Shown: piece after piece, positions 32,414-34,966 of the stretch | Numbering within the stretch: the stretch's first letter is position 1 | Layout: each line of letters opens with the position of its first letter | Source: Bifidobacterium breve | Lineage (GTDB): Bacteria; Actinomycetota; Acidimicrobiia; Acidimicrobiales; Ilumatobacteraceae | Length of the DNA stretch: 41,176 nt | Assembly (NCBI GenBank): GCA_945901725.1 | Contig: CAMDLK010000009.1 | Span: 1 to 41,176 of the forward strand | Direction of reading: 5' to 3' | The notes under the pieces: model-generated | Databases searched by the model: none | Told to the model about the DNA's origin: nothing | The model's input: only the letters and a program-made list of their open reading frames with translations | Program-made: the position numbers and the translations under genes

Positions 32414-33787
32414 CTACAAAAGTTCTGCTGCGAGACTTGCCACTTCACTGCGCTCACAGGCTGCAAGGGTGACGTGGCCGAAGCACTGCTGGTCTGCAAA
32501 GGCGTGAATCAGAACTGCAAGGGCATTGTTTGACTCACCCATATAGGGGGCATCGATCTGGCTAGTGTCGCCCGTAAAGACAACCTTCGTACCCTCGCCT
32601 ATGCGGGTAAGGATTGTCTTCAATGTGGTGGGTTCAAGGTTCTGAGCCTCGTCGACCACAACAAACTGGCGATGCAGTGATCGGCCGCGTAAGAAAGTGA
32701 CAGATTCAAGGGTGAGTTGTGAACGAGCAGTGAGGTCTTCAATGAGGCGCTTCGCATCGTTGCTTGAACGTTGATCAGTCAGCGCCACAATTGCGTCGTG
32801 AATAGCTGACATCCACGGGTCAAGTTTTTCGTCTAATCCACCAGGGAGGAAACCGACATCGGCTCGACCTACTGGTACTAGCGGGCGATAAATCGCAAGT
32901 TTTTCGTACGTGCGAGATTCAACTACTTGTTCTAAGCCAGCTGCGATGGCCATCACGGTCTTGCCGGTTCCAGCGCGGCCGTCAAGAGCAACCACGCTCA
33001 CGTCTGGGTCCATCAGAAGTTCAAGTGCAAACCGTTGTTCTTTTGATCGGGAACGAAGTCCCCACGCCTCTGGCGACGTAGTGGCAAGAAGTTCCACTGT
33101 TTCGCCAGTGCTGCGAACCAGTGCTGATTGTGAGCCAGAACGAACAACAGCAAATTCATTTGTCGTTAGGTGAGTTTCAGCGTCGAACGCCTCTGACGGG
33201 ATTTCACCGTGTTCATACAGTGCATCGACAACCGCTGACGACACTTCCAAAGTGAACCATCCCATTGGACGAGTATGGGCAGATCTACCGACAGGCTGAT
33301 GCTCAGCTGCAACAAGGCCAAGATGAGCGGCCTTGATGCGCAAACCGGCGTCATTTGAAATGATCTGTGTTGGCGCTTTAAGTGATTGACCGAGAGCTGC
33401 CCCAATGATTCGATTATCTGGAATCTCTGGGTTCAATCCGTTCTCTACTAAAAGATGTCTTTGAATACCATTTACTTCAATGTGAACTGTCGCTCCGCCT
33501 GGTTCCTGATTCAAAGGAACAGGAAGGTGAATAGAACCACCGGCTCTTCGGCGCAAATCTTCAATAGTGCGCAATGCAGTTCGTGCAGCACGACCCACAT
33601 CATCTGGGCGGCTCTTCAAGCCATCAAGTTCTTCCACCACAGTGAGTGGAATAACTACGTCGCAACCAGGAAAAGAGTGGAGACAACCAGGGTCCGCAAC
33701 AAGAACTGAAGTATCGAGAACTATGCGAGTACGCACGCCAATTGGGTACTCCGAAGTGCTCGTCATGGTGTCATCTGGTGACTCCAT
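32414..33787 (-). CDS. PhoH-like protein with N-terminal PIN domain (PhoH2 type)
   Basis: The 457-residue protein joins a PIN domain (about 18-150, with V-L-D-T-S-V-L-V, V-V-E-E-L-D-G-L and later N-D-A-G-L-R) to a PhoH ATPase domain (about 235-455). The ATPase shows Walker A G-R-A-G-T-G-K-T and Walker B-like F-V-V-V-D-E-A-Q-N, then G-D-T-S-Q-I-D. PhoH2 proteins act as sequence-specific RNA helicase/ribonucleases. The mycobacterial antitoxin partner that normally precedes phoH2 is not seen. The start may also be seven codons in (M-T-S-T-S). No -10-like box at standard spacing is visible. Confidence 0.9.
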   Translation of the reverse strand: MESPDDTMTSTSEYPIGVRTRIVLDTSVLVADPGCLHSFPGCDVVIPLTVVEELDGLKSRPDDVGRAARTALRTIEDLRRRAGGSIHLPVPLNQEPGGATVHIEVNGIQRHLLVENGLNPEIPDNRIIGAALGQSLKAPTQIISNDAGLRIKAAHLGLVAAEHQPVGRSAHTRPMGWFTLEVSSAVVDALYEHGEIPSEAFDAETHLTTNEFAVVRSGSQSALVRSTGETVELLATTSPEAWGLRSRSKEQRFALELLMDPDVSVVALDGRAGTGKTVMAIAAGLEQVVESRTYEKLAIYRPLVPVGRADVGFLPGGLDEKLDPWMSAIHDAIVALTDQRSSNDAKRLIEDLTARSQLTLESVTFLRGRSLHRQFVVVDEAQNLEPTTLKTILTRIGEGTKVVFTGDTSQIDAPYMGESNNALAVLIHAFADQQCFGHVTLAACERSEVASLAAELL

Positions 33788-33971
33788 ATCGGCACCGATC
33801 TGCTCCGCAACATGATCGATATGTCATCTTTGCATTACCGAATTACCTAAGTGGTGGATGCTGGGCCTGGCAGCCAAAGTATTCATGTCGTCGTAACTTT
33901 TGCACCTTCCGACATGTGCACAAATTGAAAAAGTGTGTTCAGCATTTCGCTGCATGGATGAATTTTGGTGG

Positions 33972-33999
33972 TTTTTAAAATATTTTTTAAAATATTTTT
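33972..33999. repeat. 12-base tandem repeat in an A/T tract
   Basis: Two perfect copies of TTTTTAAAATAT (33972-33983, 33984-33995) are followed by a partial third (TTTT). Such phased T/A runs bend DNA, and the location upstream of a nucleoid-protein gene is suggestive. Confidence 0.8.
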
Positions 34000-34329
34000 C
34001 GGCCCGATTTTTCCAAAATTTTGTACACGATGAACATGTTGAGCCGCACCAATCGAGCGCGTGTGACAATTGCCGAAAGCATTAATCATGACTTGGTGCA
34101 TCATGTGAAATGTTCAAATATGAATCAAAATCGCGCGGTGTTCAATCTTCCGAAAGTCAAGCGCAGTAAGGGTTTGCGGGGGAATATGCGTCTGCATACT
34201 CATGTGTAATTGATTTTCGGTTTTAATAAACGATCTCAGACATGTGAGCAACTACACAGTGTCCATACGCCAGTAAATGCATCGCAATGTGCACGCGCGC
34301 GCTGAATTCAAAAACACCAAAAAATCAGA

Positions 34330-34347
34330 TAGTTGCATTTGCAACTA
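34330..34347. promoter_or_regulatory. Perfect inverted repeat upstream of the HU gene
   Basis: TAGTTGCA, two bases TT, and TGCAACTA give perfect 8-base arms, about 75 bases before the HU start. A protein-binding site is likely but unproven. Confidence 0.45.
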
Positions 34348-34357
34348 GTCGAATGCT

Positions 34358-34377
34358 TGCTTTTTGTGATCAAAGCA
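34358..34377. promoter_or_regulatory. Second inverted repeat upstream of the HU gene
   Basis: TGCTTT and AAAGCA are separated by 8 bases. It lies 10 bases after the first inverted repeat and about 45 bases before the HU start. Confidence 0.3.
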
Positions 34378-34405
34378 GTTCAAATTGTTTGACAACTCCG
34401 ATTCC

Positions 34406-34412
34406 GGGGAGG
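34406..34412 (+). promoter_or_regulatory. Strong ribosome binding site of the HU gene
   Basis: GGGGAGG lies 8 bases before the ATG at 34421. It is among the strongest Shine-Dalgarno sites in the window and fixes the start, removing 12 upstream codons of the open frame. Confidence 0.75.
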
Positions 34413-34420
34413 AATACACA

Positions 34421-34732: not shown

Positions 34733-34966
34733 GTGGCAGCAAAGAAAAAAGCAGCAGCTAAAAAAGCTCCTGCACGCAAGAAGAAAGCAGCAGCTAAGAA
34801 AGCTCCTGCACGTAAGAAGAAAGCAGCAGCCAAGAAGGCTCCTGCAAAGCGCAAGAAAGCAGCCAAGAAGGCTGCTCCTGCACGCAAGAAAAAAGCAGCA
34901 GCTAAAAAGGCTCCTGCACGCAAGAAGAAGGCCACTCGCAAGAAGGCCGCTGCAAAGAAGGCCTAG
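34733..34966 (+). CDS. Lysine/alanine-rich histone H1-like repeat protein
   Basis: The 77-residue protein consists of Lys, Ala, Arg and Pro apart from its start residue and one Thr. It is built from six units of 12 residues (first unit K-K-K-A-A-A-K-K-A-P-A-R), residues 4-75. This matches the DNA-condensing tail that many actinobacteria fuse to HU, and histone H1-like proteins of other bacteria. The GTG start has AGAGGA a few bases upstream. It lies 27 bases after the HU gene and is probably in the same operon. The protein is likely disordered and binds DNA without sequence preference. The stop codon sits in the centre of a perfect palindrome. Confidence 0.85.
   Translation: MAAKKKAAAKKAPARKKKAAAKKAPARKKKAAAKKAPAKRKKAAKKAAPARKKKAAAKKAPARKKKATRKKAAAKKA
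34742..34957 (+). repeat. Six tandem 36-base coding repeats
   Basis: Six 36-base units encode the K-K-K-A-A-A-K-K-A-P-A-R type repeat. Units 1-3 and 5 are nearly identical, unit 4 is permuted (R-K-K-A-A-K-K-A-A-P-A-R) and unit 6 is degenerate. Copy number could vary by slippage or recombination. Confidence 0.85.

Follow-up and report, generated by a model that had tools for sequence, protein, structure and literature searches.

What lies between the divergently read genes for a PIN-PhoH protein and for HU in a member of the Ilumatobacteraceae, where 633 nt (33788-34420) carry no convincing gene? HU is among the most abundant bacterial DNA-binding proteins, and to our knowledge the setting of its dose in Actinobacteria is poorly known. 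Many of the genomes compared here are lake-derived, and we know of little work on gene control in lake members of this lineage. The window, i.e. the whole stretch of 41,176 nt that was analyzed, is contig C9 of a 1.9-Mb genome that is 87% complete.

Extent, coding content and conservation of the gap

A crude ORF pass with a 75-aa cut-off left no other gap of more than 269 nt in the window, which bears out the claim of an earlier note on this DNA that the region is its only long non-coding gap. The same pass itself calls a spurious 81-aa frame within the 633 nt. The earlier note had named two findings that would speak against a functional non-coding region, namely a conserved protein in one of its small reading frames, or no conservation at all among close relatives. 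Nine frames were followed in seven close relatives, and no conserved small frame was found among them: eight are interrupted by stops or by indels that change the frame in six or more of the seven relatives, and the ninth (34287-34418) keeps its length yet contains stops in four. Because of these breaks, a coding region was rejected.

As for conservation, both ends of the gap are conserved among the same seven relatives and the middle drifts. Measured in 30-nt steps, the PhoH start has 0.94 identity and the middle (33998-34327) 0.31-0.62, followed by 0.97 over 34328-34357, 0.83 over 34358-34387 and 1.00 over 34388-34417. Searching the window gave no Rfam match in the gap, and no tRNA there either; in 19 loci, Rfam returned five weak matches (E up to 2), all outside the gap.

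On the minus strand, a 16-codon frame (33813-33763) in the conserved PhoH leader ends with an ATGA that lies over an internal ATG of PhoH. As judged from the sequence, this internal ATG may be the true PhoH start. Apart from the HU-proximal end, the gap consists of the PhoH leader and a fast-drifting middle bearing two further positioned elements. Coordinates of all features are collected in Table 1.

Table 1. Features in and next to the gap, with positions in the window.
Feature	Position	Strand	Remarks
PIN-PhoH protein	32414..33787	-	PhoH match in 89/118 HU loci
PhoH leader/start region, conserved	33788..33907	-	identity 0.66-0.94 (7 close relatives, 30-nt steps)
AT tract TTTTTAAAATATTTTTTAAAATATTTTT	33972..33999	no strand	position conserved in small-genome genera
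Central dyad AACCCTTR-N5-YAAGGGTT	34153..34175	no strand	right half TAAGGGTT (34167-34174) alone intact in the window
Putative 18-bp operator TAGTTGCATTTGCAACTA	34330..34347	no strand	consensus T-N2-TTGCA-WW-TGCAA-N2-A
-35-like TTGCTT	34357..34362	+	inside conserved AATGCTTG; TTG 12 nt after operator core
-10-like TCAAAT (consensus TYNGAT)	34380..34385	+	17 nt after -35-like element
Inferred HU leader	34392..34420	+	Shine-Dalgarno GGGGAGGA at 34406-34413; start inferred from -10 position
HU protein, 94 aa, PF00216	34421..34705	+	E 9.3e-31, residues 1-90
Lysine/alanine-rich PAKKA-type protein, GTG start	34733..34966	+	follows HU in the inferred operon; without Pfam match

A putative operator and promoter of an HU-PAKKA operon

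We consider it very likely, from comparison of the sequences, that the gap ends on its right in the promoter and operator of a two-gene HU-PAKKA nucleoid operon under a putative dimeric regulator. The evidence centers on a dyad with 8-base arms that the earlier note had reported at 34330-34347. It is perfect as claimed (TAGTTGCA-TT-TGCAACTA) and is the best-supported feature of the gap. Its 12-nt core alone is not rare, as the window holds three perfect copies of TTGCANNTGCAA, so that the significance of the dyad rests on conservation and not on rarity.

HU upstream regions were gathered by DNA similarity, protein similarity and the pattern itself, leaving 118 distinct Ilumatobacteraceae regions after removal of identical ones. 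In 90 of them, TTGCANNTGCAA was found within 250 nt, and 88 of the 90 have a TTG exactly 12 nt downstream of the palindrome. The means of 100 dinucleotide shuffles were 0.08 for the palindrome and 0 for palindrome plus TTG. The count of 90 includes 27 regions that were fetched by the pattern (27/27 positive); without them, the palindrome is present in 63/91, made up of 38/45 regions from similarity searches and 25/46 from the protein search and its follow-up, which fetched mainly genera not yet sampled. L175 and L227 (weak HU alignment) and L228-L230 (no HU match) were left out of the 118; checked separately, L227-L230 lack the palindrome. The HU loci from other phyla (L068-L111) form a separate set.

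In the logo of these regions the palindrome arms are invariant by construction (27/118 regions differ from the 15-base composite at one position). The flanking T (position -2, 78/88) and A (position +15, 79/88) are symmetric about the same center. The distance from the operator to the HU start varies from 87 to 200 nt, whereas the spacing of operator, -35-like and -10-like boxes is fixed: an extended -35-like element RRTRC-TTGYA is followed by 17 nt and then by TYNGAT. Conserved symmetric half-sites at a fixed position to the promoter are as found in operators of dimeric proteins, and the comparison establishes both the candidate operator and its fixed spacing to the boxes. Such spacing is expected from a regulator that meets RNA polymerase at a fixed angle.

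TTGYA-17-TYNGAT is conserved and has its hexamers within the 16-18 nt of main-sigma-factor promoters, while a sigma-70 consensus scan reports 0 promoters in the HU upstream region. The scan requires A as the second letter of the -10 hexamer, a position at which this element has C or T. From the -10 position we infer a start site that puts the operator center (34338.5) at about -53.5. A dedicated dimeric regulator would bind the 18-bp site upstream of the HU promoter; we infer its existence and the co-transcription of HU and PAKKA, and its sign of action is probably that of an activator, as far as the arrangement of the sites tells.

The start site leaves a leader of about 29 nt, so that the long 5' leader suggested earlier is unsupported. 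All 29 columns of this leader are invariant in eight close loci. Another dyad reported at 34358-34377 (TGCTTT...AAAGCA) is present in the sequence; its conservation is limited to L002 (the window), L003 and L004 of the eight close loci, and it was rejected as a conserved element.

Two side observations concern the same stretch. In HU loci L058, L062, L063, L065, L167, L168, L170-L174, L177, L178 and L232-L235, a leader hairpin GATACC-CGGA-GGTATC (or GATAC...GTATC), its stem kept with few changes, would cover part of the Shine-Dalgarno sequence; in the window, a Shine-Dalgarno hairpin of the HU leader is weak (z -1.0). On the minus strand of 34330-34357, TTCGAC...TATCTG-like boxes can be seen by eye, and the operator could serve a leftward promoter.

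The palindrome folds as a hairpin in the window, as it would if it acted in the RNA of a longer leader or small RNA and not as a DNA site. We regard this as most improbable, since the arm letters and the flanking T and A are retained and do not covary (with the arms invariant by construction in the logo set), and since the palindrome stands at a fixed distance upstream of the -35/-10-like boxes.

The putative operator is a feature of the family. Its composite with the promoter-like box was found in 100/200 sampled family genomes and 20/27 genera (some matches being non-HU). A stricter composite occurs in 6/297 genomes of the order, all six Ilumatobacteraceae, and in 0/284 genomes of other families; a looser one, counted irrespective of its context, occurs in 9/347 genomes of the class outside the family. 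The palindrome is present in 0/43 HU regions of other phyla. Within the family it is found in 27/28 regions of the window's own genus, in all mapped regions of genera g13, g14, g51, g52, g54 and g55, and in 6/10 regions of g11, the other four having one mismatch. It was found in 0/20 regions of g3 (1), g4 (5), g6 (9) and g10 (5), in 0/2 of g56, and neither in L029 nor in L030 (g1, g2). Because of these absences, the operator cannot be essential for HU expression. The g4, g6 and g10 regions retain a TTGCAAT-like second element. The genus labels of L050, L052 and L054 were inferred from sequence likeness.

Near-identical HU genes are found in records titled Ilumatobacteraceae, Acidimicrobiaceae, acIV, Actinomycetota and the like. 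Four records (L032, L035, L050, L055) with HU 73-100% identical are titled Bifidobacterium breve, Acidobacteria and Ferrithrix, and look mislabelled.

No regulon is visible in the own genome and, among the matches listed, in 12 others. The own genome has 24 perfect palindromes, 23 of them within ORFs, the HU copy alone being outside; second-element strings are intragenic in 6/6 cases. Among the matches listed for the 12 other genomes there are 33 full operators, nine of them at HU. The 21 examined of the 24 non-HU sites are all intragenic (the other three are G045:C73, G099:C397 and G114:C43), as called by a crude ORF caller with a 60-75 aa cut-off, which can produce spurious ORFs. As far as could be checked by sequence, the operator thus appears restricted to the HU-PAKKA operon in these genomes. 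Within its reach, a literature search gave no account of such an operator. The 12-nt word, in one of its four spellings, turns up in seven papers, none with HU or Ilumatobacteraceae in the title.

The candidate element depends neither on the upstream neighbor nor on the HU gene itself, as the comparison of loci establishes. The palindrome is present in 22 of the 24 loci that lack a PhoH match although 500 nt or more of their upstream sequence is available. HU belongs to the HU/DNABII family, with PF00216 spanning the whole protein, and a lysine-rich PAKKA ORF follows it in 78/101 loci (25 of the 101 have short contig ends). In genus g55, 8/15 loci (L330, L331, L332, L333, L340, L341, L342, L343) are without HU, and the operator and promoter-like boxes lead directly into the PAKKA ORF. 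The gene after PAKKA has an MDMPI domain in 3/3 HU-less g55 loci tested, as in the window. All eight were found with the pattern, and their perfect arms are therefore a selection effect. Since these loci keep both operator and promoter, the promoter would serve the HU-PAKKA operon as a whole, and HU is dispensable for retention of the operator.

The same loci bear on self-control, which is common among nucleoid proteins: HU, or the products of the operon, might bind the operator and repress their own promoter. That no other target was found in the own genome and 12 others would fit. Operator and promoter are nevertheless kept in the eight g55 loci without HU. At E 1e-10, no HU match was found in genomes G085 and G140, and the sole match in G103, G150, G160 and G170 is a 38% paralog (the search covered the HU-less genomes except G189 and G230). 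In the HU-less g55 genomes, the PAKKA protein could still act as regulator of its own operon. Taken together, we hold repression by the operon's own products to be very unlikely. Of the protein-binding regulatory region that the earlier note had proposed next to HU, the binding site is thus supported at the first dyad; HU autoregulation is unsupported, because the operator is kept where HU is gone.

In G099, the HU frame appears degenerate. Part of the family has a second HU-type protein, about 37-38% identical and encoded by open frames of 145-214 aa (G003:C4, G007:C34, G103:C55 and others); for the genome of the window, the search reported none.

The drifting middle of the gap

The 12-base tandem repeat noted earlier at 33972-33999 repeats without error (period 12, 2.3 copies, 100% matches), and is the sole stretch of 28/28 A/T in the window. 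This AT tract was rightly flagged, because it is conserved in position: in 30/30 PhoH-HU gaps examined, the 30 nt richest in A+T are found 416-455 nt ahead of HU (A+T 0.67-1.00, weak in L022, L029 and L030). Similar tracts were seen in loci of g2, g3, g4, g6 and g10 and are absent from larger-genome genera; within 300 kb of a relative, the tract is unique. The central dyad follows about 175 nt beyond it in most loci, with at least one half-site of at most one mismatch in 46/49 loci. Tract and dyad are kept in place in six small-genome genera, with the DNA between them drifting. In several lineages, the lengths of the 5' and 3' arms change in step. Across the gap, 37 extra AACCCTT half-sites were counted, versus 31 expected.

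A replication origin was considered and rejected, as there is no DnaA box cluster by the AT tract, and no sign change of GC skew in the 41-kb window or in 300 kb of a relative. In 49 loci there are 14 perfect DnaA boxes versus 5.35 expected (at most two per locus, none in the window's gap), and 113 boxes with one mismatch versus 91 expected. L009, L012, L013 and L014 contain a second hairpin-like repeat, whose loop carries a perfect DnaA box (TTATCCACA); this repeat is located some 41 nt upstream from the central dyad.

Tract and dyad might form a loop or bend site at the DNA level, with two proteins on one face of the helix controlling HU or PhoH, an idea that we find doubtful. Apart from the retention of dyad half-sites, it draws on the distances from dyad to promoter, which cluster about 11 bp apart (168, 176-178, 188-191, 197-202, 212, 234) and show phasing at 10.5 bp (R 0.60; p ~0.0002 with 24 representatives and with no correction for descent or for the choice of period). 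However, few independent indels underlie these clusters; from tract to dyad the phasing drops to R 0.40, and no period shows in the distance from tract to promoter (R 0.12).

More broadly, the ~450 bp upstream of HU could be a single helically phased control structure in small-genome aquatic Ilumatobacteraceae, which we judge rather unlikely. The elements spaced in whole turns of DNA would then be the AT tract, the central dyad and, for part of the clade, the operator of 18 bp, and dedicated proteins would loop the DNA and so set the dose of the main nucleoid proteins. If this were true, HU control would be a two-tier switch of its own, sharing none of its sites with other parts of the genome.

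The near-constant distances of tract and central dyad, kept though the intervening DNA is unalignable, and the joint shrinking of the arms in several lineages would also fit a structured RNA gene reaching from the AT tract to the operator, for example one of 6S/Ms1 type with the tract as promoter upstream element. Alignment folding by cluster gave z values from 0.6 to -6.3, the latter for the minus strand of cluster B1 (three sequences), and pairs flanking the central dyad gave z 2.8. Against such a gene, the mean fold z is -0.99 and -0.8, the rod band has z 1.6-2.4, and Rfam has no match in the gap. The arm duplex has z -0.21 versus its own shuffles (-3.8 versus partners from other loci, in a control that does not fix base composition). 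Compensatory changes, which had been proposed as a check, were sought in aligned relatives, and the core of the central dyad showed no covariation (z -1.3). Six near-identical of the 49 loci were dropped for the arm-pairing and fold analyses, and ten for the rod band. On this evidence, which points both ways, we see such a gene as distinctly unlikely, and the small RNA gene suggested in the earlier note is not established.

Significance and comparison with known systems

The putative operator and promoter at the right end of the gap, our preferred reading, are new as an instance and ordinary in kind, being those of one operon across most of a family. What could prove stranger are the upstream elements of the small-genome genera, with their possible phasing. 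Most of the family keeps one site for one operon, despite changes of neighbor and loss of HU, which makes the question of HU dose testable, and the HU-PAKKA proteins seem, from the sequences compared, to be served by a dedicated switch.

Operators of CopY, BlaI and MecI (RNYKACANNTGTMRNY; PMC7253601) resemble the HU operator in having two half-sites that flank 2 bases and an A/T-rich center; they differ in the half-site, which is TTGCA at HU and KACA in theirs. Because of this shared geometry, the BlaI/CopY family (PF03965) was tested as regulator and rejected: 42/200 family genomes match (38 above cut-off), and the domain is missing from the own genome (G000), from the near-complete operator-bearing relatives G031 and G022, and from 17/22 sampled genomes of the window's genus. 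AtsR, a TetR-type protein of Corynebacterium glutamicum that controls its own drug-response operon, binds TGCAA-N2-TTGCA (PMC9210681). Its operator has the same two half-site words as the HU operator, with 2 bases between, and is a different site because the half-sites stand in opposite order. A Streptomyces MarR site (PMC3737563) was compared as well and does not match.

Ms1 RNA of Actinobacteria has a HAD hydrolase among its flanking genes (PMC9130861). A weakly conserved intergenic RNA of this kind would resemble the middle of the gap, but the flanking genes differ, and rod-like pairing was not clearly found there (band z 1.6-2.4).

The closest parallel to the operon itself is mycobacterial HupB, which joins an HU domain and a C-terminal PAKK/KAAK tail in one protein (PMC5676037). 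As with HupB, HU and a PAKKA-rich basic segment would be made together from one locus. Unlike the single HupB polypeptide, HU (94 aa) and PAKKA are here two ORFs, 27 nt apart in the window, and HU can disappear while the PAKKA gene remains, as in g55. The split of HU and PAKKA and the loss of HU from one lineage amount to a natural experiment that asks which HupB half is indispensable.
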